Shown: piece after piece, positions 2,312 to 52,718 of the stretch
Numbering within the stretch: position 1 is the first letter of the stretch
How the letters are laid out: each line of letters begins with the position of its first letter
IMG/VR virus record: IMGVR_UViG_3300042896_001131
Span: 1-52,718 of that record
Origin: a virus
Reading direction: 5' to 3' (one strand)
DNA length: 52,718 nucleotides
Notes under the pieces: model-generated
The model's database searches: none
What the model saw: only the letters and a program-made list of their open reading frames with translations
What the model was told of the DNA's origin: nothing
Program-made: the position numbers and the translations under genes

Positions 2312-2331
2312 TTTGTTTCACCTACTCAATA

Positions 2332-3557: not shown

Positions 3558-3590
3558 AATTTAATTCCCGCTCAAAGTTAACATAAATTT

Positions 3591-3619
3591 ATTATACTAC
3601 GAAGATTCTAGATTGTCAA
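3591..3619 (-). promoter_or_regulatory. Early sigma70-type promoter
   Basis: Minus strand: GC-TTGACA (3619-3614), 17-bp spacer, TATAAT (3596-3591). It overlaps the last codons of the kinase-like gene and drives the 118-residue gene. Confidence 0.88.
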
Positions 3620-5196: not shown

Positions 5197-5197
5197 A

Positions 5198-6055: not shown

Positions 6056-6079
6056 TTATAGACCTCGATAACTGTGTAT

Positions 6080-6178: not shown

Positions 6179-6185
6179 ATAAATA
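6178..6185 (+). promoter_or_regulatory. Late promoter TATAAATA for HNH gene 1
   Basis: Exact late box. Expected initiation 6-7 bases downstream would place the hairpin at 6191-6220 at the very 5' end of the mRNA. Confidence 0.7.
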
Positions 6186-6190
6186 AAAAT

Positions 6191-6220
6191 GCTAGTCGCG
6201 ATGCGCTAACATCCACTAGC
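6191..6220 (+). ncRNA. HNH-leader hairpin, copy 1
   Basis: GCTAGT (6191-6196), an 18-nt loop beginning CGCG and ending TCC, ACTAGC (6215-6220), then CTAAACAT. Two more copies precede other homing endonucleases (7666-7695; 44110-44139, minus). All have the same 6-bp stem and 18-nt loop lengths, with compensatory changes in the stem. Confidence 0.75.
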
Positions 6221-6252
6221 CCTAAACATCTTCGCAGTTAAAAGGATTAACA

Positions 6253-6987: not shown

Positions 6988-7629
6988 ATTTTTATATTGC
7001 ATTCTACGATCAATTAAGGGTTTAATATAAGGTCTAAGAGGTTTTATAAAAATCTGAGGCTTTTTGTCTTCAACAGCAATAATTGTTACAACTTGTTTGA
7101 CCTTATTTCCTGTCATCTCATAATATGCTAAAGAATACATTACTTCTTGTAAAAAGTAGTCAAAAATCCACTCTTCTTTTTTATCCCTACGGGAATTCTT
7201 AAAATCAATTACAGATAACAATCCATCAAACTCAGCAATACAATCAACAGTTCCAGCAATTTTTAATTTATCGCTGTACAGAGTTGCTTCTTGGCAATGA
7301 ATGTTATTAATTCTATGTAGAACTGGTTTAAGCGAATAAAACATTTCCAATGCATCAGGCATTTTACAAGAAAGAGGTCTATTGTTAAGATAATCTTCGC
7401 ACATTAGGTGAAGATTAGTTCCTCTTTTAGATGAATTGGCGGAAATACGATCAGCTTCGTTATCTCCAACGCGTTTCCGCCATTCATTAAGATGAGTTTT
7501 ATCAGCAGTGGAACCTAAGACATTGGTAATAGATGGATAACATTTATGACCTATTTGATAGTGTCGACTACCATTTACATCAACTCTTGGGTATTCTGTT
7601 AATTCAATATTAACATGACAAAAATTCAT
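6973..7629 (-). CDS. PD-(D/E)XK exonuclease (Cas4/MGME1-like)
   Basis: A 218-residue nuclease. The core motif GTVDCIAEF(D129)-x12-IDFKNS (D142, K144) is the PD-(D/E)XK signature, with a RecB/Cas4-like upstream His (GTNLHLM, H74) and a downstream QEVMYSLAY helix equivalent to motif QxxxY. Such proteins are common in T4-like cyanophages and probably act in DNA degradation or recombination. I start at 7629 (MNFCHVNIEL) because AGAGAGAAATAAA precedes it; the longer reading frame to 7713 would run into the HNH leader hairpin. A broken second copy of the C-terminus lies at 6080-6178. Confidence 0.82.
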   Translation of the reverse strand: MNFCHVNIELTEYPRVDVNGSRHYQIGHKCYPSITNVLGSTADKTHLNEWRKRVGDNEADRISANSSKRGTNLHLMCEDYLNNRPLSCKMPDALEMFYSLKPVLHRINNIHCQEATLYSDKLKIAGTVDCIAEFDGLLSVIDFKNSRRDKKEEWIFDYFLQEVMYSLAYYEMTGNKVKQVVTIIAVEDKKPQIFIKPLRPYIKPLIDRRMQYKNLFGY

Positions 7630-7731: not shown

Positions 7732-8766
7732 ATGTTCAGCACAAATACTTATATCGAAAATATTTTGAGTAGTAAACCACATAATAAACATTATTTAAAT
7801 AGATATTTAAAATTTATAAAAAAATTTTCTAATCAAATAGCAATAAAAGGCGAAACTGAAGTTCATCATATTTGCCCTAAATCTTCTGATTTATTTCCAG
7901 AATATAAATCTTTTAAAATTAATCCATGGAATAAAATAAATTTAACATATAGACAACATTTTATTGCGCATTATATGTTAACAAAAACGTATCCAGATAG
8001 CAAACAAATATATGCATTTTGGGCTATGTGTAATAAACAATCTCCATCAGATAATATAAGAAATAGAGATTATAAAGTAACTTCTAGGATATTTGAATCA
8101 ACAAAAAAATTAGTATCAAAAAAAGTTTCAAACGCGAATAAAGGTTATAGTACATATTACGATACCAATAATAACAAAATAAGATGTAAAACTAACGACG
8201 AAAAAGTAATATCTGGAGAATATATACCAATTGGAGTAGGTAAGAAAATTAACAGAACAAAAAAATTTAAATATTCATGGGAACAATTAGCTAATATGTA
8301 CCCTAACAAAAAAGTAAATTTATACTTTTTAGAAATAAAAATAGTTGTAAATCATTATACAGACAATTATATTAATTTGATTGAACAAGGCTGGGTACGT
8401 GAAATAACTAAAGAATTTAGAACGATGCAAGCTATTAAAAATAACAAAAATATGACTATAGAATCAAGAAAAAAAGCTGGAGTAAATATCTCAAAAACAA
8501 TAACAGGTATCGTTAGAAAAAAATCAAGAAAACGCTGCGAGCTATTAAGAAAAAAAGATAATTCGTATTATTTTGAATATTTTTACAATACGATAACTAA
8601 TTCGGTCGAATATATAGATTCTTATTATAAATCTATATATCATATTAAATGTTTTAGTAGAAATTCACATAATAAATTTATCTGGATTAATAATGGAATA
8701 AAATCATTCGTTTATAATCCAGATATACCGTTTTTATTAGAAGGATATGTTAAAGGTAGATTATAG
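7732..8766 (+). CDS. HNH homing endonuclease 2
   Basis: A 344-residue protein. The HNH-type core is EVHHICPKS, then INLTYRQHFIAHYMLTKTYP. The long Lys/Asn-rich C-terminal part probably binds DNA; it ends in a segment (WINNGIKSFVYNPDIP) typical of phage HNH proteins. The N-terminus MFSTNTYIENI and the leader match HNH gene 1, but the rest is divergent. It is inserted on the plus strand between the exonuclease and phoH and overlaps the phoH stop by six bases. Confidence 0.87.
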   Translation: MFSTNTYIENILSSKPHNKHYLNRYLKFIKKFSNQIAIKGETEVHHICPKSSDLFPEYKSFKINPWNKINLTYRQHFIAHYMLTKTYPDSKQIYAFWAMCNKQSPSDNIRNRDYKVTSRIFESTKKLVSKKVSNANKGYSTYYDTNNNKIRCKTNDEKVISGEYIPIGVGKKINRTKKFKYSWEQLANMYPNKKVNLYFLEIKIVVNHYTDNYINLIEQGWVREITKEFRTMQAIKNNKNMTIESRKKAGVNISKTITGIVRKKSRKRCELLRKKDNSYYFEYFYNTITNSVEYIDSYYKSIYHIKCFSRNSHNKFIWINNGIKSFVYNPDIPFLLEGYVKGRL

Positions 8767-17896: not shown

Positions 17897-18655
17897 ATGT
17901 CAGCTACAGTTGAAACAGTAAAAGCAGAAGTTGCAGAAGCACCGCTTTTAAACAAAAGAAATATGTTGTTAGGCGCAGCTTTGTATATTGTATTTTATGG
18001 TTGGGTTCGTTGGTATGAGGGTGTATATGGATGGTCAGCTGGTTTAGATTCATTTGCTCCAGAGTTTGAAACATATTGGATGAATTTCCTTTATATTGAG
18101 ATGGTACTTGAGGTATTAACTGCATCAGTGTTGTGGGGTTATATCTGGAAGACTCGCGATCGTAAAGTAATGTCAATTACCCCTAGAGAAGAATTGAGAC
18201 GTCATTTTGCTCATTGGGTATGGTTAGTAATGTATGGTATTGCAATTTATTATGGTGCTTCATATTTTACTGAACAAGATGGTACATGGCATCAAACAAT
18301 CGTTCGTGACACTGATTTTACTCCAAGTCACGTTATTGAGTTTTATCTAAGTTACCCAATTTATATTATTACTGGTGTAGCTTCATTCTTATACGCTAAA
18401 ACTCGTTTACCAACCTATCAAAAAGGATTACCATTACAATATTTGGTATCTGTAATTGGTCCTTTTATGATTCTTCCAAACGTAGGTTTGAATGAATGGG
18501 GTCATACCTTCTGGTTTATGGAAGAATTGTTTGTTGCTCCTTTACATTACGGTTTCGTATTCTTCGGATGGGCTGCTTTAGGTGTATTAGGTGTTGTAAA
18601 TATTGAAGTTCAAGCTATTTCTAAATTATTGAAAAAAGATTTAGCTGCAGTATAA
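17897..18655 (+). CDS. pmoC: Particulate methane monooxygenase subunit C
   Basis: A complete 252-residue PmoC, an integral membrane subunit of the copper enzyme that oxidises methane to methanol. Five to six hydrophobic helices are visible. The metal ligands keep the spacing of the Methylococcus capsulatus protein: DGTWH with D128 and H132, then H145 (PSH); and NEWGH with N199 and H203, then H217 (PLHYG). ITPREELRRHFAHW and RDTDFTPSH are family signatures. AGGAGAATAAT precedes the start. No pmoA or pmoB is nearby, so the product must join host subunits. The alternative AmoC cannot be excluded, but the DGTWH-RDTDFTPSH sequence fits PmoC. Base composition is like the phage, so the transfer is not recent. 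Confidence 0.96.
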   Translation: MSATVETVKAEVAEAPLLNKRNMLLGAALYIVFYGWVRWYEGVYGWSAGLDSFAPEFETYWMNFLYIEMVLEVLTASVLWGYIWKTRDRKVMSITPREELRRHFAHWVWLVMYGIAIYYGASYFTEQDGTWHQTIVRDTDFTPSHVIEFYLSYPIYIITGVASFLYAKTRLPTYQKGLPLQYLVSVIGPFMILPNVGLNEWGHTFWFMEELFVAPLHYGFVFFGWAALGVLGVVNIEVQAISKLLKKDLAAV

Positions 18656-33843: not shown

Positions 33844-36800
33844 TTAGTTTGTTATAAGAATAGTATTAGTATCAACTTGAACAACAATAGCATTATTCAT
33901 AGCAGTGATTAATAGAGCATCATCATCACGTTGTACAAGAATTTCCGATTCATTTTTATTTAAGCGAGCACTAGCACCTGGAGCAGCGATTAGTACAGCA
34001 GCATCATCACGTTGAATCAGATTATTATGATGATTATGTGTAACGAGAATACGTTTAATATTGGTATTAATCAACCTAGCAAGTAGATCAGCATTAATAC
34101 TACAAGCATTATTTGCTGTTATAGCAGCAGAAATAACAATAGCGGTAGATAGATTACAGGTACTCGTTGCGATTACACTAAGAGCAGTGGCAAGTTGCAC
34201 TTTGGTGTTTAGTTCCGGAGAGGAGACAGCAGTATTAACAACACCAGAACTAATTAAAACAATACCAGTGTTTAATTGAGCTGCATTAGATACAATACAA
34301 GTATCAGTTGATGTTAGATAGATATTTGTATCAATGGTTAATGCAGTAACAGATGTTTGAGTTGTTGCACGAGCATTTAGATATACTCTAGTATCAAGAA
34401 CAGCACTGCTATTTACCAAGGATTGAGCAGTTGCTGTTATTGGCATAGCAACAGATAAATTCGCGCTTACTGTAGCAGTATCAATAACAAGAGCATTTAA
34501 CTTTATTGCAGTAGCAAGAGCAGATACACAATTAACTTGAGCAGAGCAACTTGCTCTTGCATTTATTGCAGTAACAAGAACAGCATTACTTGTAACAACA
34601 GAACTTGCATTACCAAGTAGAACAACGCCAGTATTTAATTGTCCTGCATTAGATACGTTACATGTATCGATGGCACGTAATTCAATATTAGTTTCCAGAG
34701 CAGCAGATATAGATACGATATCTGTTACATAGGCATTGGCTTTGATTGCAGTTGTTAATCTACTGTTACTAGATGTACTAGAATAAGCAGCTGCCACTAG
34801 AACAACGCCAGTATTTAATTGTGCAACATTAGATACAATGCAAGTATCTATAGACGCTAGAAGAATATTTGTTGTTAAACTAGATGTAGTAGCAGCTTGT
34901 GTGGCGACTTGTGCATTGGCTTTGATTGCAGTTGTTAATCTACTGTTACTAGATGTACTGGAATAAGCAGCTGCCACTAGAACAACGCCAGTATTTAATT
35001 GAGCTGCATTAGATACAATGCAAGTATCTACGGATGCAAGTTGTATTCTAGTTGTTAAATCTGAAGTAACAGTTACTTCATCTATTAATGTAGAATCAAG
35101 CGCAATTACACTAGTTGTTAATCTACTGTTACTAGATGTACTAGAATAAGCAGCTGCCACTAGAACAACGCCAGTATTTAATTGGGCAACATTAGATACA
35201 ATGCAAGTATCTACGGATGCAAGTTGTATTCTAGTTGTTAAATCTGATGCAGAGACAGCAAGAGCAGCGACTTGTGCATTGGCTTTGATTGCAGTGGTTA
35301 ATCTACTAATTGCTAATACTTGACAAACAGCATTACCCAATAAAACAACTTCTGTATTTAATTGAGCTGCATTAGATACAATGCAAGTATCTACGGATGC
35401 AAGTTGTATTCTAGTTGTTAAATCTGATGCAGAGGCAACAAGAGCAGCGACTTGTGCATTGGCTTTGATTGCAGTGGTTAATCTACTGTTACTAGATGTA
35501 CTAGAATAAGCAGCTGCCACTAGAACAACGCCAGTATTTAATTGAGCCGCATTAGATACAACACAGGTATCTACGGATGCAAGTTGTATTGCAGTGGTTA
35601 ATCTACTGTTACTAGATGTACTAGAATAAGCAGCTGCCACTAGAACAACACCCGTATTTAATTGGGCAACATTAGATACAATACATGTATCTACCGATGC
35701 AAGTTGTATTCTAGTTGTTAAATCTGATGCAGAGACAGCAAGAGCAGCGACTTGTGCATTGGCTTTGATTGCAGTGGTTAATCTACTGTTACTAGATGTA
35801 CTAGAATAAGCAGCTGCCACTAGAACAACTTCTGTATTTAATTGAGCTACATTAGATACAATACATGTTTCCGTAGATGTTAATTCAATGCTAGTTGTTA
35901 AATCTGATGCAGAGGCAGCAAGAGCAGCGACTTGTGCATTGGCTTTGATTGCAGTGGTTAGATTACCCAATGCAGTTGAGATGCTTGATGTATCGCTTAA
36001 CAGAACAACTTCTGTATTTAATTGAGCTACATTAGATACAATGCAAGTATCTACGGATGCAAGTTGTATTCTAGTTGTTAAATCTGATGCAGAGGCAGCA
36101 AGAGCAGCGACTTGTGCATTGGCTTTGATTGCAGTGGTTAATCTACTAATTGCTGATATTTGACAAACAGCATTACCTACTAGAACAACGCCAGTATTTA
36201 ATTGGGCAACATTAGATACAACACAGGTATCTACGGATGCAAGTTGTATTCTAGTTGTTAAATCTGATGCAGAGGCAACAAGAGCAGCGACTTGTGCATT
36301 GGCTTTGATTGCAGTGGTTAGATTACCCAATGCAGTTGAGATGCTTGATGTATCGCTTAACAGAACAACGCCAGTATTTAATTGAGCCGCATTAGATACA
36401 ATACATGTTTCCGTAGATGTTAATTCAATGCTAGTTGTTAAATCTGAAGTAACAGTTACTTCATCTATTAATGTAGAATCAAGCGCAATTACACTAGTGG
36501 TTAATCTACTAATTGCTGATATTTGACAAACAGCATTACCCAATAAAACAACTTCTGTATTTAATTGAGCCACATTAGATACAACACAGGTATCTACGGA
36601 TGCAAGTTGTATTCCGGTTGTTATGTTTGAATTTGCTACAACATTACACGATAGATTAGAATTAGCATTAATCTGTGTTAATAGATTAGGAGTAGACGTA
36701 GATACTTGACAAACAGCATTACCCAATAAAACAACTTCTGTATTTAATTGAGCTGCATTAGAAACAACACAGGTATCTACGGATGCAAGTTGTATTCCGG

Positions 36801-37758
36801 TTGTTATGTTTGAATTTGCAGTTGAGATAGTTGTTAAAGTTGCAGCTGGTTTAATGCTGGTTATTAGACCAGGAGTAGAAATAGATACTCTGTTCGCGAT
36901 GGAGCCAATTAATGGAATGCCAGTATTTAATTGAGCCGCATTAGAAACAACACATGTTTCCGTGGAAGCTAATCTAATGCGAGTTTTTAGGTTAGATTGA
37001 CTAGTAGATACAACGTTTGCTGTGCCGTTAACAGTTATACTTGTAGTTAGAGCAGAATTTGTCGATACTTGGGCGTTTATTTGCCCAAACATTCTAGAAA
37101 AATTTATTTCCGATTCACATATACATGTAACGGCAGCTCGAATTAAAATAGATGTAGATATATCTGCAAAATTTACCGTAGATATACTTGCAACAGAACT
37201 AGCTACTGTTATGCTTGTAGATAGAGCGGAATTTGATGATGTTGTATTTTGAACTGAGCCAATTAAAACTATGCCTGTATTTAATTGTGCAGCATTAGAT
37301 ACAACACAAGAATCTGTGGCATTTAATTCAATAACTGTTAATAAGTCAGATTGAGAAGAAACTGTATCTAATACATTTCCTTGCAATGTTATATTTGTAG
37401 ATAGAGTAGAATTTGCTGTAGCAATTGCAGTTAAAGTTGATGTATTCAGTTTAACTTGCGTTGCGAGATCAGCGCCACTACTTGCTAGAGAAGCAGCATG
37501 GGCAGCTAAATTTATTTGAGTATTAATTGATGCTGTAGTTAATACTAAAATATTGGTTACTGATGCAAAAAGATTTATACTCGATAATAATTTAGGAGTA
37601 GAAACTGTCGCTGTTGCTGTTGCTGTAGAATTAAATAAAATTTGAGTTGTAAGATCTGCTGCAACCGAACTTGTTGCGTTCGTAGATGTTTGTAATTCCG
37701 CTGCCGCAACGCCAGATGACGATATTGGGTTGGAACTTATTGCATAAAATCCTAGCAT
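33844..37758 (-). CDS. Giant 20-residue-repeat fibre protein (1304 residues)
   Basis: Almost the whole protein is a chain of imperfect 20-residue units with consensus L-[TN]-T-x-[IV]-x-L-x-[AS]...S-x-[AS], for example LTTRIQLASVDTCIVSNAAQ, LNTGVVLVAAAYSSTSSNSR and LTTAIKANAQVAALAASASD. The three unit types alternate in 60-residue blocks that are nearly identical in DNA in the middle of the gene (about 34700-36700). A regular beta-solenoid or triple-stranded fibre is likely. Units with TC-x-VSN and AVCQ place Cys at fixed phase. The C-terminal 90 residues are unique (LIQRDDAAVLIAAPG; ILVQRDDDALLI). Late-type box AATAAATA at 37794-37801. Confidence 0.82.
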   Translation of the reverse strand: MLGFYAISSNPISSSGVAAAELQTSTNATSSVAADLTTQILFNSTATATATVSTPKLLSSINLFASVTNILVLTTASINTQINLAAHAASLASSGADLATQVKLNTSTLTAIATANSTLSTNITLQGNVLDTVSSQSDLLTVIELNATDSCVVSNAAQLNTGIVLIGSVQNTTSSNSALSTSITVASSVASISTVNFADISTSILIRAAVTCICESEINFSRMFGQINAQVSTNSALTTSITVNGTANVVSTSQSNLKTRIRLASTETCVVSNAAQLNTGIPLIGSIANRVSISTPGLITSIKPAATLTTISTANSNITTGIQLASVDTCVVSNAAQLNTEVVLLGNAVCQVSTSTPNLLTQINANSNLSCNVVANSNITTGIQLASVDTCVVSNVAQLNTEVVLLGNAVCQISAISRLTTSVIALDSTLIDEVTVTSDLTTSIELTSTETCIVSNAAQLNTGVVLLSDTSSISTALGNLTTAIKANAQVAALVASASDLTTRIQLASVDTCVVSNVAQLNTGVVLVGNAVCQISAISRLTTAIKANAQVAALAASASDLTTRIQLASVDTCIVSNVAQLNTEVVLLSDTSSISTALGNLTTAIKANAQVAALAASASDLTTSIELTSTETCIVSNVAQLNTEVVLVAAAYSSTSSNSRLTTAIKANAQVAALAVSASDLTTRIQLASVDTCIVSNVAQLNTGVVLVAAAYSSTSSNSRLTTAIQLASVDTCVVSNAAQLNTGVVLVAAAYSSTSSNSRLTTAIKANAQVAALVASASDLTTRIQLASVDTCIVSNAAQLNTEVVLLGNAVCQVLAISRLTTAIKANAQVAALAVSASDLTTRIQLASVDTCIVSNVAQLNTGVVLVAAAYSSTSSNSRLTTSVIALDSTLIDEVTVTSDLTTRIQLASVDTCIVSNAAQLNTGVVLVAAAYSSTSSNSRLTTAIKANAQVATQAATTSSLTTNILLASIDTCIVSNVAQLNTGVVLVAAAYSSTSSNSRLTTAIKANAYVTDIVSISAALETNIELRAIDTCNVSNAGQLNTGVVLLGNASSVVTSNAVLVTAINARASCSAQVNCVSALATAIKLNALVIDTATVSANLSVAMPITATAQSLVNSSAVLDTRVYLNARATTQTSVTALTIDTNIYLTSTDTCIVSNAAQLNTGIVLISSGVVNTAVSSPELNTKVQLATALSVIATSTCNLSTAIVISAAITANNACSINADLLARLINTNIKRILVTHNHHNNLIQRDDAAVLIAAPGASARLNKNESEILVQRDDDALLITAMNNAIVVQVDTNTILITN
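34620..36800. repeat. Long near-identical DNA repeats inside the fibre gene
   Basis: Blocks of 60, 180 and 240 bp recur with few changes; for example the stretch GTTAATCTACTGTTACTAGA occurs repeatedly between about 34755 and 35795. All periods keep the frame, so recombination can change fibre length. Confidence 0.85.
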
Positions 37759-43298: not shown

Positions 43299-44081
43299 TT
43301 ACTTATGTTTAAGCGATTCTAAATATTCATCTGATTTCATATACGCACCTTTTGGTAATTTTAATCCGTTAGCTTTGTATAATTGTTTTATTTCTTGATA
43401 AATGGGTCTAGCTGCTTTTGATTTTTGAAATGTACCATGTAATCCTGGATTATTATTTACAAAAGCATTTTTTCCATTTTCAATTTGTTTATAAACTGGG
43501 TTTGTATCCCCTAAGAAAAAATGCGTTCCATCTTTTATTTTTGCTTTAGATGGATGATTATCATTTAAAAAATTATGCGTGCCGTTTTTAAGTCTTTTTT
43601 GTGCTAATTCTCGCTGAAATTCCCCGCCAATCCAATGATGCGTTCTATCTTTAAGCCTTTTTTGTTGAATTTTTCTTTGAAATTCTCCACCAATCCAATG
43701 ATGTGTTCCATCATTAACTCTTTTTTGTTGTATTTTTTTCTGTTGTTCAGAAGTTGTTCCGCCATCCAATCCATTTTCTAATTTTAAATTAGCCCATTCT
43801 TTAGATTTAACTATATTATATTTTTCTGATAAATTTATTGCTGTAGCAACTAATATATTAATATCATTAAATAATTCGCACCATATTGTATCAACATCTC
43901 TGCCATGTTTTTTTAAATGGGATAACCAATAATCTCCAGATCCGTTATATTTAATTGGATTTTTACAATTAGTTTTACACAAATATTTTAAACCTGTTAA
44001 TTTATGTTGTTTTATCATTAAATATGTTGGTTTAAAATTTTTTATTTGTTGTTCTGTTATATAAATATTTTCGCTAGACAT
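43299..44081 (-). CDS. Homing endonuclease, degenerate GIY-YIG type with repeat tail
   Basis: A 260-residue protein. The N-terminal part (TYLMIKQHKLTGLKYLCKTN, NPIKYNGSGDYWLSHLKKHG) matches phage Seg-like proteins in which GIY-YIG has become degenerate, followed by the conserved SKEWANLKLENGLDGG. The C-terminal half holds five NUMOD-like repeats (DGTHHWIGGEFQRKIQQKRL; NGTHNFLNDNHPSKAKIKDG). I start at 44081 (MSSENIYITE) because GGAGG lies just before it; the ATG at 44099 is earlier in the same frame. It carries the same leader hairpin as the HNH genes, although the protein family differs. Confidence 0.78.
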   Translation of the reverse strand: MSSENIYITEQQIKNFKPTYLMIKQHKLTGLKYLCKTNCKNPIKYNGSGDYWLSHLKKHGRDVDTIWCELFNDINILVATAINLSEKYNIVKSKEWANLKLENGLDGGTTSEQQKKIQQKRVNDGTHHWIGGEFQRKIQQKRLKDRTHHWIGGEFQRELAQKRLKNGTHNFLNDNHPSKAKIKDGTHFFLGDTNPVYKQIENGKNAFVNNNPGLHGTFQKSKAARPIYQEIKQLYKANGLKLPKGAYMKSDEYLESLKHK

Positions 44082-44109
44082 TATTCCTCCATATTTCATA
44101 ATGTTTAGT

Positions 44110-45774: not shown

Positions 45775-45996
45775 TTAGTCAGCTTTTCTAATTTCTTCCA
45801 GCGTAAAAACTCTATCGTGAACGATAGTCATCATACCTATCTTAGTATTTAATATTTTGTAATATGAATTTTTAGTAGAACTATAAATTACTCCAGACGC
45901 TATTATAGTTCCAATAATAAGACCATAAATTGCATAAATTAAATTGGTTTTGGTTATGTTCAAATCTATTTTTATTTCGGGTAAATTTTTAATCAT
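45775..45996 (-). CDS. Small single-span membrane protein
   Basis: A 73-residue protein: MIKNLPEIKIDLNITKTNLI then one membrane helix (YAIYGLIIGTIIASGVIYSS) and a soluble tail (IVHDRVFTLEEIRKAD). It is the first gene after the early promoter at 46032-46060 and lies 11 bases before the phosphoesterase gene, so the two are probably co-expressed early. Function unknown. Confidence 0.68.
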   Translation of the reverse strand: MIKNLPEIKIDLNITKTNLIYAIYGLIIGTIIASGVIYSSTKNSYYKILNTKIGMMTIVHDRVFTLEEIRKAD

Positions 45997-46031
45997 AATA
46001 TAAGTTCTCTCGTCAAGTTTAGTTACAGCCT

Positions 46032-46060
46032 ATTATAATATATATCCTGCAGAATGTCAA
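46032..46060 (-). promoter_or_regulatory. Early promoter
   Basis: Minus strand: GC-TTGACA (46060-46055), 17-bp spacer, TATAAT (46037-46032). The -35 and -10 hexamers both match the consensus exactly. Confidence 0.92.
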
Positions 46061-46086
46061 GCACTTTTTCTAAAAAAGTTTTCCAG

Positions 46087-46094
46087 CCTAAATA
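46087..46094 (+). promoter_or_regulatory. Late-type box CCTAAATA
   Basis: The same variant as at 26414, 37 bases before the endolysin gene, the head of the lysis and curli gene run. Confidence 0.35.
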
Positions 46095-46130
46095 TAGGTA
46101 ATGTTAATCAAATAAATATGGAGTTTAAGT

Positions 46131-47168
46131 ATGTTTAGCGGAATAAAAAACTGGATTGAAGTTGCAAAAACAGTTTCCGAAGTTATAACGGAAAAAAAAT
46201 TATTAGAAAAAGAAGGAATAACTTCTACAATGGATGACCTTAAATCTATTGCAGTAGCAAAAGTTAATCCTGCTCCGGTTGAACAACCACAACCTGTTAT
46301 CGAAGAAGTTAAGCCAGAACCAGTTGTGGTTAAAACTTCAAAAGTTGAACAAAAACCTACTGGACCTGTTATGGCAGCTAAAGGCGATCCAAAAGTATTT
46401 GAATTACAAAAACAATTAATCGCTAAAGGCGCAAAAATTACTGCTGATGGTCTTATGGGACCAGCCACTAAAAAAGCTCAACAGCAATTTGCAGAAAAAC
46501 CTGCTACTTCTGATACAGCTCCAGCTATTTGTCATATAGCATCTGCAAGTGATTGCATTACTGCTGATTTATTAAAAAAATTATTTCCTACAAATAAAAA
46601 TTGCGATGCTCTTTGTACGGCTTTATGTACTATCCTACCAAAATACGAAATTAACACGCCAAATAGAATTGCAGCTTTCCTAGCTCAATGCGGTCATGAA
46701 TCAGGTGGATTTACAGTTCTACAAGAAAACTTAAATTATTCAGCTGAGGGATTAAGAAAAATCTTTCCTTCTAGATTTGCAACAGTGGCTGCTGCTCAAC
46801 CATACCATAGACAACCGGAAAAAATTGCCAATAAAATTTATTGCGATAGAATGGGTAATGGTCCAGAATCTTCAGGCGAAGGATATAAATTTCGTGGACG
46901 CGGAGCTATTCAGTTAACAGGCAAAGAAAATTACAGCAATTTCGCAAAATCCATCGGTAAATCTCTTGATGAAACAGTTGCTTATTGCGAAACATTAGAG
47001 GGAGCTATCTGTTCAGCAGCATGGTTCTGGACAACTCGTAAACTTAATGTGTGCGCTGATTGTGGTGATATTCTTTCTATGACTAAAAAAATAAATGGCG
47101 GGACTATTGGAATCGAAGACCGCAAGAAACATTACGAACACGCGTTATATGAAATTAAAAAGAGTTAA
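46131..47168 (+). CDS. Endolysin: peptidoglycan-binding domain plus GH19 glycosidase
   Basis: A 345-residue lysin. Residues 84-120 (GDPKVFELQKQLIAKGAKIT, then ADGLMGPATKKAQQQF) form a PG_binding_1 domain. Residues 150-345 form a GH19 domain: AAFLAQCGHESGGF with E190, LQENLNYS with E199, FRGRGAIQLTGKENY and a C-terminal Cys-rich part (CADCGDILSMTKKINGG). GH19 phage lysins cut the glycan strand of peptidoglycan. There is no signal peptide, so it needs a holin; three candidates follow directly. The first 80 residues are an unusual Lys/Pro/Val-rich linker that begins with an amphipathic helix. Confidence 0.93.
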   Translation: MFSGIKNWIEVAKTVSEVITEKKLLEKEGITSTMDDLKSIAVAKVNPAPVEQPQPVIEEVKPEPVVVKTSKVEQKPTGPVMAAKGDPKVFELQKQLIAKGAKITADGLMGPATKKAQQQFAEKPATSDTAPAICHIASASDCITADLLKKLFPTNKNCDALCTALCTILPKYEINTPNRIAAFLAQCGHESGGFTVLQENLNYSAEGLRKIFPSRFATVAAAQPYHRQPEKIANKIYCDRMGNGPESSGEGYKFRGRGAIQLTGKENYSNFAKSIGKSLDETVAYCETLEGAICSAAWFWTTRKLNVCADCGDILSMTKKINGGTIGIEDRKKHYEHALYEIKKS

Positions 47169-47170
47169 TT

Positions 47171-47464
47171 ATGGACGTTCAAATTCCAGCAAATTTTGAT
47201 TATTTTGGTTTAATAGAAGAGGTTGGTTTTCCAATCACTTTAGCTATGGTTTGCGGTTGGTTTATTATGCAGGCTATGGAATTGGTATTAGGCAGTGTTG
47301 TTAAATCAATTAAAAAATTAACAGGTTTAATTCGTTCAATGGATGGAAGAGTTCGTCAAATGAATACTGATGTATTAGAATTGGATGGATTAGTTTCTGG
47401 TTCGTTAATGGTTGACCCATTACCTGAAAATAGTTATTATACAATTAATCAGGAGGATAAATGA
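47171..47464 (+). CDS. Holin-like membrane protein 1
   Basis: A 97-residue protein with one N-terminal hydrophobic segment (GFPITLAMVCGWFIMQAMEL) and a charged helical C-terminus (LIRSMDGRVRQMNTDVLELD). Same plan as the next two genes and as the phage holin-like proteins in which a membrane helix is followed by a coiled segment (BhlA type). It begins two bases after the endolysin and overlaps the next start by four bases. Confidence 0.7.
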   Translation: MDVQIPANFDYFGLIEEVGFPITLAMVCGWFIMQAMELVLGSVVKSIKKLTGLIRSMDGRVRQMNTDVLELDGLVSGSLMVDPLPENSYYTINQEDK

Positions 47465-47745
47465 ATCCAGAATACGTCAAATTTTTTACAGATGTATTGG
47501 CTCCGACATTAGCGAGTTGTGTTGCAGGAAGTTTTATTTTTACTGCATTAAAATTTGTATTAAAAGATGTTATTGCAGCAGTTAATATTTTAGCGATTAG
47601 CGTTAAAGCATTAGAAAATAGGGTTAGATCTAGTTCACACGAATTAATTAAAATAGATGTAACAATTTCTTCAGTTTTAGGTTTACGTCCAGATTTAGAA
47701 CGTATTTCCAGAGCTGATGGAAAAAATGACGCAAGAAAAGATTAA
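47461..47745 (+). CDS. Holin-like membrane protein 2
   Basis: A 94-residue protein: short N-terminus, a hydrophobic segment (LAPTLASCVAGSFIFTALKF), then a heptad-like helix (ISVKALENRVRSSSHELIKI). AGGAGG precedes the start. Distantly paralogous to its neighbours by layout rather than by strong identity. Likely part of a multi-component holin/antiholin set. Confidence 0.7.
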   Translation: MNPEYVKFFTDVLAPTLASCVAGSFIFTALKFVLKDVIAAVNILAISVKALENRVRSSSHELIKIDVTISSVLGLRPDLERISRADGKNDARKD

Positions 47746-47757
47746 AAGGAAAAAATT

Positions 47758-48030
47758 ATGGGTGAAATAGGAGATTTAATATCTAAATACGGATTTCCAA
47801 TTGTAGCAGCAGGTTACATGTTAAAGATGGTAAAATATGTTTGGTCATATACCATCGATGAAATTAATCCAGTATTAGGGGAAGCAAGTAAAGAGTTGAT
47901 TGCTCTTATCGATCGTATTAGATTATTGGATAATGATTTACTACGTTTAACTGCTAAATTAAACACAGTTCTTCAAATGCGAGAACAGCAACAAGATCCA
48001 GTAGCAAAAAGAAATAATAGACAGAGATAA
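47758..48030 (+). CDS. Holin-like membrane protein 3
   Basis: A 90-residue protein, MGEIGDLISKYGFPIVAAGY, one hydrophobic segment, then a helical stretch (IALIDRIRLLDNDLLRLTAK) and a basic tail (KRNNRQR). The opening is the closest of the three to phage holins of the ISKYGFPIVAA type. AAAGGAAAAAATT precedes the start. It ends three bases before csgF. Confidence 0.72.
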   Translation: MGEIGDLISKYGFPIVAAGYMLKMVKYVWSYTIDEINPVLGEASKELIALIDRIRLLDNDLLRLTAKLNTVLQMREQQQDPVAKRNNRQR

Positions 48031-48033
48031 TAT

Positions 48034-48477
48034 ATGAAAAAATATTTACAATTATTTTTCATTATGTGTTTTTCAGTAGGAGTTAATGCAACACCTATGA
48101 CTTTTGAGTTTAAAGATCCATCATTTTCAGGAAATGGTTGGTCGGCTCAGGTTATAACTTTAGAACAAATTGAAGCGCAACGTAAACAAAAAATTAAAGA
48201 CGATCAATCGGCAGCAATTGCTAAAGCCGAAGTTGCTGCAAATAATAGCAATTTATCTAAATTTTTAGTTAATGTTGAATCTAGAATTTATGCTCAATTA
48301 TCAAAACAATTAACTGATCAACTGTTTTCTGATACAGGAGCAACATCAGGGACAATGGATTTTCAAGGAACATCAATTAATTGGATTAAAACAGCTAATG
48401 ATGTTACATTAACAATTATGGAAACAAACGGTAATACAACAGATATTACTGTGCCAATAGGACAATTCGGATTCTAA
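48034..48477 (+). CDS. csgF: Curli assembly factor CsgF-like
   Basis: A 147-residue exported protein. A signal peptide (MKKYLQLFFIMCFSVGVNA) is followed by TPMTFEFKDPSFSGNGW, the CsgF N-terminus (E. coli mature CsgF begins GTMTFQFRNPNFGGN). This segment plugs into the CsgG pore. The rest keeps the CsgF plan: helical middle (FLVNVESRIYAQLSKQLTDQ) and C-terminal strands (GTMDFQGTSINWI; VTLTIMETNGNTTDITVPIG). It comes immediately before csgG, two bases apart. In bacteria CsgF couples secretion to curli nucleation at the cell surface. Confidence 0.88.
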   Translation: MKKYLQLFFIMCFSVGVNATPMTFEFKDPSFSGNGWSAQVITLEQIEAQRKQKIKDDQSAAIAKAEVAANNSNLSKFLVNVESRIYAQLSKQLTDQLFSDTGATSGTMDFQGTSINWIKTANDVTLTIMETNGNTTDITVPIGQFGF

Positions 48478-48478
48478 T

Positions 48479-49273
48479 ATGAAATATATTATTTTATCAT
48501 TATTTTTATTACTTTCTGGTTGTTCACAACTTGCTCTAGAATTAGCAGCAGAAGAACCAGTTTCTGTTAAACCAAGAGCAAATCTATCAGAAAAACTTCC
48601 TTTTCTTGAAGGGGATTCAATTCCTATTTCTGTGTACGAATTTACCGATAAAACTGGGCAACGTAAACCGTCTGATAAATTAGCTCAATTATCAACAGCT
48701 GTTCCACAAGGCGCAGAATCTTTTGTCATTAAAGCTCTACAAGATTCAAAAAATTGGTTTAAAGTTGTTGAACGCGTCGGTTTAGATAGTTTAGTTAAAG
48801 AACGTCAATTAATTAGAAATCAAAGAGAAGTTTACGAAAAAACTGAAGCAAAACCATTAACTCCATTGATGGTTAGCGGATTAATAGTAACAGGAAGTAT
48901 ATCTGGTTACGATTCTGACATAAGATCTGGCGGTATTGGTTTACGATTATTTAAATTAGGTTTTACTGATGAATATCGTGTAGATAAAATTACTATTTCA
49001 ATGAGAGTTATCTCAGTTGCAACTGGAGAAGTTTTGTTATCGGTAATAACAACAAAAACAATTTATAGTTTTGCCTCAGGTGGCGGAGCTATGATGTTTA
49101 TTGGAACTGGTAATGTAACTGCTCTTGAAGCGGAAGTTGGTGATGCTGTTAATGAACCAATCACCGAAGGAGTTAGAGTAGCTATTGAAGATAGTGTTTA
49201 TTCCATGATACTTGAAGGTGAAAAGAAAGGTCTCTGGAAATTCAAAAAAGAAATGCAACCATTCCGCATATAA
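48479..49273 (+). CDS. csgG: Curli secretion channel CsgG-like lipoprotein
   Basis: A 264-residue outer-membrane lipoprotein. The lipobox LLSGC puts the lipidated Cys at 15. Matches to E. coli CsgG run through the protein: ISVYEFTDKTGQRKP, STAVPQGAESFVIKAL, NWFKVVERVGLDSLVKERQL, LMVSGLIVTGSISGYDSDIR, SGGIGLRLFKLG, MRVISVATGEVLLSV, EAEVGDAVNEPI and KGLWKF. CsgG forms a nonameric beta-barrel channel for unfolded curli subunits. By eye, the constriction residues Tyr51, Asn55 and Phe56 of E. coli align with Ser/Asp, Gln and Leu here. Only CsgF and a curlin-repeat protein accompany it; no CsgE or CsgD is seen. Confidence 0.93.
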   Translation: MKYIILSLFLLLSGCSQLALELAAEEPVSVKPRANLSEKLPFLEGDSIPISVYEFTDKTGQRKPSDKLAQLSTAVPQGAESFVIKALQDSKNWFKVVERVGLDSLVKERQLIRNQREVYEKTEAKPLTPLMVSGLIVTGSISGYDSDIRSGGIGLRLFKLGFTDEYRVDKITISMRVISVATGEVLLSVITTKTIYSFASGGGAMMFIGTGNVTALEAEVGDAVNEPITEGVRVAIEDSVYSMILEGEKKGLWKFKKEMQPFRI

Positions 49274-49284
49274 AGGAAAAATAA

Positions 49285-49920
49285 ATGAAAAAAATACAAA
49301 TATATTTAATTATGTTTGTTATGCTTTTTGCTAAATCTGTATTAGCTAGTGACGTTTTTATTGAACAAATTGGAAGTTCTTCTGAAATTAAAGTAACTCA
49401 GCAAGGAACTTCGAATAGAATAGGTAGTTCTTTAACTCCTTCGTTTTTTGGTGGAGATAGTAATAAATTTACAATTGAACAAGTTGGCGCTGTTAATGAA
49501 TTGGATTTATTAATTAATGGTAACAATACAAATGTAACATTAGAAACATATGGTGCTGGTAATATCGAAAGTATTATTTGCGGAAGTAAAACTACACCAA
49601 ATTCTTGCGATAATTCTACAATCGATTATACAATATCAGGTAATAATAATAAAATTACTACAAATTTAGGAGCTGCTGATAAATCTGCTACAAGTAAAAT
49701 GAATATTTCCGGTAATAATAATATTGTTACTCATACAGGGACTCATACAAGTACTCTTGGTAGTAAAATATCGGCAGATTTAACTCTTATCGGAAATTCA
49801 AATAAAATTGATATGACTCAATCAGGAAGTTTGGATGAAAACATTAAAGTCACCAGCACAGGCAACAACAATAACATTAGCATTACTCAGTCTTCTGTTA
49901 TTACTTTACTCGCCCCGTAG
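49285..49920 (+). CDS. Curlin-repeat secreted protein (CsgA/CsgB-like)
   Basis: A 211-residue protein with a signal peptide (MKKIQIYLIMFVMLFAKSVL, cleavage after A-S). Repeats of the curlin type follow: FIEQIGSSSEIKVTQQGTSN, FTIEQVGAVNELDLLINGNN, YTISGNNNKI, MNISGNNNIV, LTLIGNSNKIDMTQSG and VTSTGNNNNISITQSS. The Q-x-G-x-x-N spacing is that of amyloid beta-solenoid curlins, with Asn-rich turns. It is the natural substrate candidate for the adjacent CsgG channel. AAAGGAAAAATAA precedes the start. It overlaps the next gene by 86 bases. Two Cys (CGSK, NSCD) could form one disulfide. Confidence 0.82.
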   Translation: MKKIQIYLIMFVMLFAKSVLASDVFIEQIGSSSEIKVTQQGTSNRIGSSLTPSFFGGDSNKFTIEQVGAVNELDLLINGNNTNVTLETYGAGNIESIICGSKTTPNSCDNSTIDYTISGNNNKITTNLGAADKSATSKMNISGNNNIVTHTGTHTSTLGSKISADLTLIGNSNKIDMTQSGSLDENIKVTSTGNNNNISITQSSVITLLAP

Positions 49921-50914
49921 TTTTGGAGCAATTGGTAAAGTTTCTGAACAAACTGGAGTAGCTGAAATACAGCGAAATAAACAATCGCTACCAAGTGCTG
50001 TTAATACAGAAATTGAATCTATGGATGTCGTGGTTACTGCAAAAGGTAAACTCGACATTACTTTTAATGATAATACCAAAGTTTCCGTTGGCGAACAAAG
50101 TAAACTTGTAATTGACGATTTTGTTTATGACGCTAAAAAATCCACAGGAAAACTTGGATTAAAAATTGCATTAGGAACTGTTCGTTATGCCTCTGGGCAA
50201 ATAGCAAAACATAATCCACAAAATGTTGGAATACAAACTCCAACGGCTACCGTTGCTGTTCGTGGTACAGATTTTTCTACAACAGTAGATGAATTAGGTC
50301 AAAGTACATTTATTCTGTTACCAAGTTGCGATTTATCTGGTTGCGTAACAGGAGCTATTGAAGTTTCTACAGATGCAGGTTTTGTTTTATTAAACCAAGC
50401 ATTTCAATCAACTACTGTTTCTGATAAAACAAATTCTCCATCAAAACCAACTATAATTAATATTGATCCATTAAATATTAACAATAGCTTAATTGTATCT
50501 TCTCCAGTAAAAGCCGCTGACACAACAGTAACAGTTCAACAAATAAAAACTGGATTAGATGTTAATTTTCTTGATCAAGATTTTTTAACGTACAAACAAT
50601 TAAGTATCAATTTATTAGATGTAAAAACTGATTTAGATAAAAATAAATTAGATGAAAAATTATTAACAAATGCATTAGACGAACCGATTGATGATATTAG
50701 TGATATGCTACCTGGATATGATGAAAAAACAAATTTAAAATATAATACAAATGGAAAAGCATTAGTTCTTGATAAAGAAGCAACCAAAAATAAATTTCAA
50801 TTAAAAGTAGATAAAAATGCAGATGCAACTTTAAAATTAAATCAAGAAGGAACTGCGTTAACTCAAAATATTAACATGGGTACAACCACGAAAATAGATA
50901 TTACACAAAAATAA
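49835..50914 (+). CDS. Exported FecR-domain protein
   Basis: A 359-residue protein. The start at 49835 lies inside the curlin gene in another frame, with AGGAAG six bases upstream. The first residues form a signal peptide (ITLALLSLLLLLYSPRSFGA) encoded by DNA that also encodes the curlin C-terminus. Residues 33-155 match a FecR domain: VSEQTGVAEIQR, LDITFNDNTKVSVGEQSKLV, DDFVYD, GTVRYASGQIAKHNPQNVGI and PTATVAVRGTDFSTTV. A long Asp/Leu-rich linker follows, and the last 40 residues have curlin-like phrases (KLNQEGTALTQNINMG). Perhaps a surface partner that co-assembles with the fibre. FecR-domain proteins otherwise act in periplasmic signalling. Confidence 0.8.
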   Translation: MKTLKSPAQATTITLALLSLLLLLYSPRSFGAIGKVSEQTGVAEIQRNKQSLPSAVNTEIESMDVVVTAKGKLDITFNDNTKVSVGEQSKLVIDDFVYDAKKSTGKLGLKIALGTVRYASGQIAKHNPQNVGIQTPTATVAVRGTDFSTTVDELGQSTFILLPSCDLSGCVTGAIEVSTDAGFVLLNQAFQSTTVSDKTNSPSKPTIINIDPLNINNSLIVSSPVKAADTTVTVQQIKTGLDVNFLDQDFLTYKQLSINLLDVKTDLDKNKLDEKLLTNALDEPIDDISDMLPGYDEKTNLKYNTNGKALVLDKEATKNKFQLKVDKNADATLKLNQEGTALTQNINMGTTTKIDITQK

Positions 50915-50917
50915 TAT

Positions 50918-51667
50918 ATGGATAAAAAATACCAAAGCATTTTTATTAGCGATATACATTTAGGAACAAAAGATTCTAAAGCAATTGAATTAATTGATTT
51001 TTTAAAAAATAATACTTGCAATAAATTGTATCTTGTTGGAGATATAATTGATGGATGGAAAATACAACAAAATAAACTTAAATGGAAACCTAGTCATACA
51101 AAATTAATTCATAAATTTTTATCTTTATCGAGGAAAGGAACTGAGGTAATATACATAACAGGGAATCATGATGAATTTATTAGACCAATGGTTAATCTTA
51201 ACGTCACCTTTAGTAAAATTTCAATTCATAATCAATATGAACATAATGGAATTGATGGTAAACGCTATTTGGTAACTCATGGAGATTTATTTGATGGAAT
51301 TACTAGGCTTGCTCCATGGTTAAGTTTTCTTGGAGATAAAGGCTATGATTTAATTTTATCATTAAATAATAAATTTAATTGGGTAAGACATAAATTGGGA
51401 TTTGGTTATTGGAGCCTAAGTAAATATTTAAAACATAAAGTTAAAAAAGCTGTCGATTTTATGTTCCAGTTCGAAATAAATTTAACAGACTATTGCAAAA
51501 AACGTGGATATGACGGCGTTATCTGCGGACACATTCATCACGCGGAAATAAAAGAAATTAATGGTGTAACATATATGAATGATGGAGATTGGGTAGAATC
51601 ATTAACGGCTTTAGTCGAACATCATGATGGTAGATGGGAAATTGTAACATATAGTAAGGAGGAATAA
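50918..51667 (+). CDS. UDP-2,3-diacylglucosamine diphosphatase-like phosphoesterase (LpxH family)
   Basis: A 249-residue metallophosphoesterase. Blocks: FISDIHLGTKDSKA, LVGDIIDGWKIQ, YITGNHDEFIRP, LVTHGDLFDG, FNWVRHKLGFGYWSLSKYLK, GVICGHIHHAEI and YMNDGDWVESLTALVEH. These segments match the proteobacterial LpxH-related proteins usually encoded beside a GT4 glycosyltransferase, as here. True LpxH cleaves UDP-diacylglucosamine in lipid A synthesis; this subgroup may act on another envelope glycolipid precursor. It follows the FecR gene by three bases and overlaps the next start. Confidence 0.85.
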   Translation: MDKKYQSIFISDIHLGTKDSKAIELIDFLKNNTCNKLYLVGDIIDGWKIQQNKLKWKPSHTKLIHKFLSLSRKGTEVIYITGNHDEFIRPMVNLNVTFSKISIHNQYEHNGIDGKRYLVTHGDLFDGITRLAPWLSFLGDKGYDLILSLNNKFNWVRHKLGFGYWSLSKYLKHKVKKAVDFMFQFEINLTDYCKKRGYDGVICGHIHHAEIKEINGVTYMNDGDWVESLTALVEHHDGRWEIVTYSKEE

Positions 51668-51834
51668 TGTATATTTTAGTGGCATTACAAGCAGTAGCAG
51701 CATTAGGAACTAGTCTTTTTTGGCAACCAATTGGCGATTTTAGTTCGTATGAATCTTGTAAAGTAGCAATGGAACAATTACATAAATCAAAAGAGCATAG
51801 AGAAGGTGAAATGTATGTTTGCCTAAAAAAATAA
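51667..51834 (+). CDS. 55-residue exported or membrane microprotein
   Basis: MYILVALQAVAALGTSLFWQ then PIGDFSSYESCKVAMEQLHK and EHREGEMYVCLKK. A hydrophobic N-terminus (signal peptide or anchor) is followed by a short domain with two Cys 27 residues apart, likely disulfide-linked in the periplasm. AGGAGGAATA precedes the ATG, which overlaps the previous stop. Similar Cys-pair microproteins occur in T4-like phages. Function unknown. Confidence 0.65.
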   Translation: MYILVALQAVAALGTSLFWQPIGDFSSYESCKVAMEQLHKSKEHREGEMYVCLKK

Positions 51835-51835
51835 T

Positions 51836-52718
51836 ATGAAAAAAACTATCTTAATAATAACAGACAATTTACCGAACCAAATTAATGGCGTGGTAACTAC
51901 ATTTAATAATTTAAAACTTGTTGGCGAACAAGAGGAGTTTACTTTTGAATTTATAACTCCTCTAGATTTTAAACATATTAATATGCCAAAATATCCAGAA
52001 GTTAAATTAAGTTTTCCTTTTGGATTAACTAAGAAAATTAAAAAAATAAATCCAGATTTTATTCATATAGCAACAGAAGGTACTATTGGAATTGCAGCTA
52101 AATTGGCTTGTAAGAAAAATAAATGGAAATATAATACGAGTTATCACACGAATTTTCCAGAATTCGTTAAAAAAATTTACGGAATGCCAGAAAAAATTAC
52201 ATACAAATTTTTACGTTGGTTTCATAATCGTTCTTATAAAGTTTTAACAACAACCAATACAATGGTTCAAGAATTAAAATCTAATGGATTTAAATGTGAT
52301 GTTATTTCATGGACTAGAGGTATTAATAGAGAAGAATTAACTCCAACTAAACCAAAAGAAAATAGAGAACAAATTATATTGTTATCTGTTGGTAGGGTTT
52401 CTAAAGAAAAAAATTTAGATGTATTATGTCAATTATCAACTAATCCGCAATATCACATTCAAATTGTCGGAGATGGTCCATATAGAAAAAAACTTGAAAA
52501 AAAATACCCATTGGTAGAATTTGTTGGTTATAAATCTGGATCAGAATTAGCCGATTATTATGTTAATGCTGATGTATTTTGCTTTCCAAGTAAAACCGAT
52601 ACATTTGGAATTGTAATGATTGAAGCAATGTCATTGGGATGCCCTGTAGCTGGATATCCAGTTGCTGGTCCAATTGATGTTATTGAATCTGATGTTAATG
52701 GTTACATAGATGAAAATT
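51836..52718 (+). CDS. Glycosyltransferase family 4 (3' truncated by the window)
   Basis: The first 294 residues of a GT-B glycosyltransferase. The N-terminal domain has MKKTILIITDNLPNQINGVV, DFIHIATEGTIGIAAKLACK, YNTSYHTNFPEFVKKIYGMP and LRWFHNRSYKVLTTTNTMVQ. The C-terminal domain has LLSVGRVSKEKNLDVL, VGDGPYRKKLEK, FVGYKSGSELADYY and VFCFPSKTDTFGIVMIEAMS, which holds the E-x7-E-type donor site. These are hallmarks of bacterial GDP-mannose- or UDP-sugar-dependent glycolipid glycosyltransferases. With the LpxH-like gene it makes a two-gene unit known from bacteria. It starts one base after the previous stop (TAATATG). Confidence 0.9.
   Translation, partial: MKKTILIITDNLPNQINGVVTTFNNLKLVGEQEEFTFEFITPLDFKHINMPKYPEVKLSFPFGLTKKIKKINPDFIHIATEGTIGIAAKLACKKNKWKYNTSYHTNFPEFVKKIYGMPEKITYKFLRWFHNRSYKVLTTTNTMVQELKSNGFKCDVISWTRGINREELTPTKPKENREQIILLSVGRVSKEKNLDVLCQLSTNPQYHIQIVGDGPYRKKLEKKYPLVEFVGYKSGSELADYYVNADVFCFPSKTDTFGIVMIEAMSLGCPVAGYPVAGPIDVIESDVNGYIDEN

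Follow-up and report, generated by a model that had tools for sequence, protein, structure and literature searches.

Phages encoding a curli pore have been described since 2020 (PMC7029224); in 2022 a role in lysis was put forward (PMC9004378), and in the same year a module with curlin, FecR and a cyclase, derived from Alphaproteobacteria, was described in marine pelagiphages (PMC9599517); these and the other papers cited here are represented by excerpts of their text. We analysed IMG/VR virus record IMGVR_UViG_3300042896_001131, a linear fragment of 52,718 bases that we took whole and call the window, in which four genes of a type VIII secretion system (T8SS) lie at 48034-50914. Like the pelagiphage T8SS (HTVC008M, Melnitz and HTVC023P-type), as far as the excerpts describe it, the window's system has the order csgF-csgG-curlin-fecR, a CHASE2 cyclase and small paired genes upstream. 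The two belong to one CsgG clade, but the window lies in a separate sister clade, its CsgG is 44-46% identical to those of the marine isolates, it has one curlin gene instead of two, and it adds an endolysin, three holin-like genes, a PlcP/GT-like insert and a nuclease. Enterobacterial curli (csgBAC-csgDEFG) have CsgG, CsgF and curlin repeats in common with the phage module; in the latter, CsgE was not found, FecR and the CHASE2 cyclase are added, and the pore constriction residues differ. Phage T8SS with FecR and a cyclase are known already from marine pelagiphages; the window's clade is a deep sister of theirs. Our preferred reading, to which we give a probability of roughly 0.45, is that this phage export module is joined through FecR to a transmembrane sensor with CHASE2 and cyclic AMP (cAMP) output.

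The window is a piece of a T4-like, pmoC-bearing virus. Its T4-like set of PHROG matches comprises single-strand DNA-binding protein, helicase loader, both topoisomerase II parts, exonuclease and PhoH, and a pmoC/amoC gene at 17897-18655 (PF04896, E 1.7e-123) has a top match of 88% identity in a sample of 369 gammaproteobacterial genomes. A sister contig, L005, is 99.1% identical to the window across 46001-52718, up to the last window base, and continues beyond it into a DNA/RNA non-specific nuclease (PF01223, E 1e-51) and then a 671-residue CHASE2 cyclase. The window therefore holds only part of the operon, and because it stops short the cyclase escaped the first-pass annotation. For comparison we used 60 IMG/VR loci from a scan with the window's CsgG; all were found via CsgG and many are close kin, and counts among them are not independent events. 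Synteny was counted by profile searches of all + strand open reading frames (ORFs), with profiles built from the same loci and intervening genes permitted. The module genes within the window, with model confidence given as predicted local distance difference test (pLDDT), are:

48034..48477, + strand: csgF (PF10614, E 1.8e-18), 5' of csgG in 56/56 loci with 0.7 kb upstream
48479..49273, + strand: csgG, outer-membrane lipoprotein pore (PF03783, E 2e-44; LSGC lipobox by eye)
49285..49920, + strand: curlin-repeat protein with a signal-peptide-like start, predicted beta-solenoid (PF07012, E 5.5e-5; model)
49835..50914, + strand: fecR, with a signal-peptide-like start, FecR domain, disordered linker and curlin-like tail (PF04773, E 3.3e-11; model with PupR-type fold)
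50465..50707, + strand: FecR linker, residues 211-291, nearly all at pLDDT <50 in the predicted model
50708..50908, + strand: FecR C-terminal beta-rich tail, residues 292-358, with two curlin-like strands (model, alignment, matrix)

The four genes are consecutive, as first annotated, and each lies above its Pfam cut-off. The pore-binding N-terminus ascribed to CsgF is borne out by the family match together with an alignment to the N-terminus of solved CsgF, for which phmmer by itself is weak (E 0.44). The CsgG lipoprotein channel likewise stands, and the CsgG family profile matches solved CsgG at E 6.6e-70. At the positions aligned to the pore constriction, which we take to be Y51/N55/F56 of CsgG, the residues are mostly S or N, Q or L, and L or F. 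Some loci encode long CsgG variants of 368-415 residues (e.g. L028 8001-9248); the L028 protein, the sole long CsgG scanned, has a C-terminal SH3-like domain just under the cut-off (PF06347, E 1.1e-4), which might anchor the pore to the cell wall. The curlin protein scores 23.5 bits against PF07012 (cut-off 20.7) in three stretches, and its model is a confident beta-solenoid (pLDDT 83.9) whose top structural match, the beta-helix of SufB-SufC-SufD entries (Z 17.7), reflects a common fold only. Its two cysteines, C99 and C108, are invariant in 35 aligned sequences. By homology, the export reading of this gene set is well supported: CsgG and CsgF would form an outer-membrane pore, and the curlin-repeat protein would be its likely cargo.

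The FecR reading frame overlaps the curlin gene and encodes a protein with a hydrophobic segment at residues 6-34, followed by the FecR domain. In the model (mean pLDDT 68.5) the N-terminal helix is signal-peptide-like, the FecR region is well predicted, and the tail has block means of about 61-83. In structural comparison the FecR region resembles the PupR cell-surface signalling domain (6ovk_R), with Z 15.6 over 136 aligned residues at a root-mean-square deviation of 2.6 Å (Foldseek 4.3e-4), and a 'cell surface anchoring domain' (5ix9), which we take to come from an RTX adhesin, with Z 7.6, under the level where Z alone is telling, over 73 residues at 25% identity (Foldseek 8.0e-3). The phage protein thus shares the FecR-domain fold with PupR/FecR regulators; unlike them it appears to be exported, and no anti-sigma domain was found in Pfam scans of 15 phage FecR proteins, which have PF04773 as the sole family common to 15/15. 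This bears on the idea that pore and FecR form an uptake module or an iron-responsive one, which draws on the FecR name ('ferric citrate regulator') and on a suggestion in PMC9599517 as excerpted. A protein of this domain content, signal-peptide-like N-terminus and model is ruled out as an anti-sigma or iron regulator, and we regard the uptake or iron explanation as very improbable.

The C-terminal tail carries the curlin-like phrases that had been noticed in the sequence, and they are conserved. Q337 and Q358 are invariant in 34/34 aligned proteins that are 33-99% identical to the window's FecR. We scored curlin units with a 12-column matrix built from 178 units of 49 proteins, after thinning 56 FecR and 71 curlin proteins to 37 and 49. 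The best site of FecR lies within the last 45 residues in 30/37 proteins, against an expectation near 12%; the binomial value of 2e-21 assumes independent proteins, which the FecR set violates. Median best scores are 9.6 for FecR, -0.9 for FecR minus the tail and -1.1 for other ORFs; shuffled sequences give a median of 1.0, a 95% level of 7.2, a 99% level of 10.9 and a maximum of 19.2. Two xIxIxQ sites are spaced 21 residues apart in 26/37 FecR proteins. New here is a FecR protein that joins a predicted periplasmic signalling-type fold through a disordered linker to a curlin-like tail conserved at the C-terminus, with no anti-sigma part.

Beyond the window end, in sister contigs and relatives, CHASE2 and class III cyclase domains are present in 7/7 complete phage copies scanned by Pfam. 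All 32 distinct phage cyclases keep both metal Asp residues, the adenine Lys and the transition-state Arg, to use the roles that we assume for these positions; the second purine-selecting position is D in 23, T in 8 and S in 1. Two catalytic-half types alternate among close relatives. Between L035 and L063, identity is 95% for CsgG, 88% for FecR and 92% for the CHASE2 half, and 53% for the catalytic half; the same comparison of L048 with L042 gives 91%, 89%, 72% and 51%. L005 and L012 have the reversed pattern (CsgG 84%, FecR 66%, CHASE2 half 49%, catalytic half 82%).

Pairwise distances place the CHASE2 half with the export genes. For 23 loci, left from 32 after removal of L017 (insert-broken cyclase), three with an incomplete gene set and five near-identical ones, CHASE2 distances correlate with those of curlin (rho 0.87), the FecR domain (0.84), the FecR C-terminal part (0.83), CsgF (0.79) and CsgG (0.72), and with those of their own catalytic half at rho 0.50. 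The catalytic half correlates with CsgG at 0.22 and with the FecR domain at 0.33. Partial Mantel coefficients given CsgG are 0.72 for CHASE2-curlin, 0.63 for CHASE2-FecR domain, 0.50 for CHASE2-catalytic and 0.31 for catalytic-FecR domain, with p-values all at the floor of 2000 permutations in a test that is liberal. Recombination breakpoints within the cyclase gene alone would yield part of this pattern. In our reading, what is selected is an output that makes cAMP, whatever its origin, behind a sensor that would be fitted to the local FecR and curlin. Also new is a CHASE2 half that appears to evolve with FecR and curlin beside a catalytic half that has been swapped with its metal, K and R residues kept.

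In the mechanism that we favour, the FecR domain would keep the exported FecR protein in the periplasm, and the curlin-like tail on its flexible linker would hold or nucleate the curlin protein. The periplasmic CHASE2 domain of the cyclase would read the state of this assembly, presumably by contact with FecR, and the enzyme would make cAMP in the infected cell, acting via host receptors. A phage-encoded cAMP receptor was ruled out by a search for the cyclic nucleoside monophosphate (cNMP)-binding family, which is present in 0/11 viral records. The likely use would be to remodel the surface of the infected cell, as a fibre or coat against superinfection or for contact, with feedback on its state. 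The sequences themselves show gene content, gene order, domains, residues and co-inheritance; curlin export, contact of FecR with curlin and with CHASE2, cAMP production and the biological purpose are inferred.

Bacterial systems offer partial parallels. According to the excerpts of PMC13001267, S. meliloti CHASE2 adenylyl cyclases raise cAMP in response to an outside protein sensed via the outer-membrane barrel NsrA, so that NsrA is the sensor of the outside; a FecR gene lies nearby, as in the phage module. Unlike in the phage module, curli genes are not mentioned in the excerpted text; FecR there is not needed for perception (PMC5498481). In a Burkholderia biofilm operon, BiofilmReg, a periplasmic FecR-LysM protein adjoins a CHASE2 histidine kinase (PMC5192318, excerpts), which resembles the phage arrangement of FecR beside a CHASE2 sensor; the output differs, and a LysM domain takes the place of the curlin-like tail.

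The same genes could also be plain phage curli, making an extracellular amyloid that serves in aggregation ('sibling capture') or bars superinfection, with FecR as a CsgB-like anchored nucleator and a separate cyclase that raises host cAMP to favour biofilm. CsgF, CsgG and curlin occurring together and the curlin-like tail on FecR fit this view, which excerpts of PMC7029224 and PMC9599517 propose. So does the FecR domain itself, which resembles a surface-anchoring domain and lies near the start of long alphaproteobacterial ORFs. FecR-profile matches are found in 86/289 genomes of Nitratireductor's class, and among 27 alphaproteobacterial loci (30 fetched, 3 without a profile match) the domain starts <=260 residues from the ORF start in 26, the ORFs often being long. 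The plain curli explanation leaves the tracking of FecR and curlin by CHASE2, above its own enzyme half, unexplained, and cultures of phage Melnitz were without clumping in the excerpts of PMC9004378. We consider it possible, if on the unlikely side. An outside-in receptor is decidedly unlikely: here the FecR domain would act as an adhesin-like periplasmic retention plug, the linker of ~80 residues would thread the CsgG-CsgF pore, and the curlin tip would cap or nucleate a fibre outside, so that pull on the fibre or its occupancy reaches the CHASE2 cyclase and cAMP reports contact or a second phage.

Several observations weigh against the FecR-linked export and sensor reading. On the export side, an N22 targeting segment, which is not known to be general, precedes the first repeat in known curli subunits; the phage curlin protein has its first repeat directly after the signal-peptide-like start, with no N22-like spacer. 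CsgE (PF10627) was found in 0/11 viral records, some possibly fragments, with a match in the E. coli control; CsgE is not essential for curli according to the excerpts of PMC7029224. What stands of the full export system first proposed for this locus is a T8SS module that has a probable substrate and FecR as its partner, with caveats on CsgE and on the spacer. The Melnitz cultures without clumping count here too.

On the FecR side, the tail claim rests on our own matrix because the Pfam curlin model misses the tail, finding no repeat in 15 FecR proteins at E 10 with filters that drop weak matches. The match is modest: the FecR median exceeds the 95% but not the 99% shuffle level, and only 19/37 FecR proteins lie above the 99th percentile of other ORFs. 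Barrel-like proteins encoded in the cluster likewise score on the matrix (median 5.8), the 21-residue spacing is rare between neighbouring sites of curlin proteins (3 cases; 11, 23 and 27 lead), and the bacterial FecR of locus L071 is without the tail glutamines. S. meliloti FecR gene smc02177 is dispensable for signal perception in the excerpts of PMC5498481. On the cyclase side, the position of the transition-state Asn is S in 22/32 and N in 10/32 cyclases, the catalytic half also tracks curlin (rho 0.53, partial 0.57), and the absence of a cNMP-binding family from the 11 records belongs here as well, as does the common route through CsgG by which all loci were found.

The gene order, which the first-pass annotation suggested looking for in other methanotroph phages, recurs throughout the set. 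Curlin is the next module gene 3' of csgG in 52/52 loci with 0.7 kb downstream, csgG-curlin-fecR is kept in 50/50 loci with 1.8 kb downstream, and the cyclase follows in 33/34 loci with 6.5 kb, L031 being the exception; Pfam confirmed FecR in 15/15 chosen members. In 30 records chosen from the 60 loci, many of them fragments, pmoC was found in 0, a result that is uninformative without a known positive. A barrel-like protein is encoded in the cluster in 24/60 loci (clusters 14, 80 and 81), with a signal-peptide-like start and a C-terminus like that of outer-membrane barrels; its identity is read from the sequence letters, and Pfam, run on three of these proteins, gave no barrel.

CsgG relatives at E 1e-3 occur in seven of 50,697 phage records: Melnitz (4), HTVC008M (2) and one 1.5-kb clone. 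The clone, 'Salmonella phage S.Kent' (L004), is unannotated and groups with bacterial CsgG, and it was set aside. The Melnitz and HTVC008M relatives, from T4-like phages of a marine methylotroph and of Pelagibacter, agree with the kinship to such phages named in the first-pass annotation. In a CsgG tree of 67 rows, for which the program warns of long branches, phage-type sequences form one clade of 45 rows (support 100/94), including four rows whose short source contigs had been binned as bacterial. Within it the marine isolates fall in a group of 9 rows, and IMG/VR contigs make up the remaining 36 (99/99); in the larger group, 29 rows are sister to the window's clade (100/100), in which its CsgG is identical to that of L005. 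From the pmoC gene and the dataset numbers, the 36-row clade is presumed to be largely freshwater.

CsgG in the family holding the best pmoC match, the host-like family, occurs in 9/151 genomes and is distant in the tree. Most of its operons have a CsgE-sized gene between curlin and csgF, and no fecR was seen in the short loci read. Recent capture from the host was ruled out, since all nine are far in the tree and the operons differ. A decayed or hitch-hiking host curli operon, functionless in the phage, could point to L071, a 96-kb contig of a metagenome-assembled genome with the order curlin-csgF-csgG-curlin-curlin-fecR, as a bacterial operon of similar parts. The module genes are under purifying selection, with ratios of non-synonymous to synonymous rates (dN/dS) of 0.09-0.33 relative to L010, L011, L015 and L016, and the curlin gene has zero coding differences from L010. 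With an identical gene order in two separate clades, and with host-like CsgG both distant and infrequent, we find decay scarcely credible.

Upstream of csgF the window carries the following genes:

46131..47168, + strand: GH19-type endolysin, outside the conserved module (phrog_181, E 3.7e-77; PF00182, E 6.3e-8)
47171..47464, + strand: holin-like paralogue 1 (phrog_18771, E 1.3e-14; holin phrog_4898, E 0.028; hydrophobic segment 18-36)
47461..47745, + strand: holin-like paralogue 2 (phrog_18771, E 2.7e-20; no holin PHROG; hydrophobic segments)
47758..48030, + strand: holin-like paralogue 3 (phrog_18771, E 2.1e-22; holin phrog_4898, E 7e-8; no segment above the hydropathy threshold)

These had been annotated as an endolysin followed by three holins. 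The endolysin holds, whereas the holin PHROG is matched convincingly by one paralogue, at E 0.028 by another and not by the third; a crude hydropathy scan puts a membrane segment in paralogues 1 and 2 and none in 3. These small genes may supply the holins used by phages of this group. A second cell-wall hydrolase with a signal-peptide-like start is encoded at 2573-3067 on the - strand (PF07486, E 9.9e-12; phrog_14642 endolysin, E 5.2e-12).

In a rival explanation the module would aid lysis: the CsgGF pore, replacing spanins, would serve as an outer-membrane channel or a pinholin-like trigger that times lysis. The endolysin and three holin-like genes directly 5' in the window fit this proposal, which is also made in the excerpts of PMC9004378, and a holin-like pair directly precedes csgF in Melnitz, HTVC008M and some other clades. 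At least one holin-like gene lies on either side of the module in 20/25 long loci; in 12/25 loci, holin-like genes are downstream and on the opposite strand. The curli module is thus not bound to them in one transcript. The endolysin family, searched with a profile of the window's family only, is upstream in 10/50 loci with >=5 kb upstream, all within the window's CsgG clade. Spot checks upstream in other clades gave no endolysin: a bilin reductase, an RNA-binding protein, an endonuclease V/oxygenase-like gene and unknowns stood there instead. Among seven loci picked for tRNA-like stretches in that place, csgF starts 17-50 bases past a tRNA-Met gene in five (L029, L037, L039, L042 and L048). 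An outer-membrane lysis step as the general function, one of the hypotheses first attached to the locus, therefore does not survive: a lysis or spanin substitute as conserved role is ruled out on synteny. A lysis aid also gives curlin, FecR and the cyclase no role, and we consider it quite improbable.

In L029, 25 tRNA genes occupy 6 kb 5' of csgF (1270-7491). The bilin reductase is that of L054 (5020-5715; cluster 10 elsewhere), a ferredoxin-dependent enzyme (PF05996, E 1.3e-15) encoded two genes 5' of csgF. The paired small genes of Melnitz and HTVC008M encode 92-115 residues, too short for a kinase; our guess is that they are the 'HK' of PMC9599517. The T4-type late promoter, which we take to be TATAAATA, has zero exact matches in 45800-51000, and one-mismatch sites are common across the window (229, both strands).

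Downstream of fecR, two further genes, with a 55-residue ORF between them, complete the window:

50918..51667, + strand: LpxH/PlcP-like calcineurin metallophosphoesterase (PF00149, E 9.4e-12; LpxH model below cut-off)
51836..52717, + strand: GT4 glycosyltransferase, cut by the window end and complete in L005 (L005 copy PF00534, E 1.3e-25)

The metallophosphoesterase is present in 9/60 loci. L005 has at 5036-6955 the complete metallophosphoesterase, a 55-residue ORF and the GT4 glycosyltransferase, the nearest models for which are lipid glycosyltransferases, all below cut-offs. The pair is reminiscent of PlcP and Agt, which save phosphate by remodelling membrane lipids; remodelling of the PlcP/Agt type has been reported for a methanotroph (PMC9239053, excerpts). 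The nuclease gene, at 6981-7739 of L005, has a signal-peptide-like start and lies directly 5' of the cyclase gene. It is on the + strand in 14/60 loci, every one from the window's clade, and its product, if periplasmic, could cleave the DNA of incoming phage.

A gene family, cluster 8, has copies in the window at 6253-6987, 7732-8766 and 43299-44099. In other loci it is inserted inside the cyclase (L017, L018), between holin-like genes (L007) or between curlin and fecR (L013, L016-L019). By eye we took it for a homing endonuclease; Pfam gave no match in the three window copies. At 33844-37758 on the - strand, a 1304-residue protein with many near-identical repeats and no Pfam match is perhaps a fibre-like structural protein.

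The word CHASE2 is absent from the main text of PMC9599517, as are curli, csg and FecR from the main text of PMC7674155 on pmoC phages, and for the sister clade, the FecR tail and the catalytic swaps our searches of a library of openly licensed papers gave no report. Two earlier readings are corrected: FecR, in print as an iron regulator, has no anti-sigma part here, and the endolysin linkage is not general. Since the 2020 report (PMC7029224) we found, in the excerpted literature, no demonstrated function for phage curli modules. The conserved FecR tail and the co-inheritance of CHASE2 with FecR and curlin, next to a swapped catalytic half, would turn an unexplained cluster into a testable circuit in which the export of a fibre is sensed across the envelope and converted to cAMP. 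If the circuit is real, the virus would equip the infected bacterium with a transmembrane receptor of its own.

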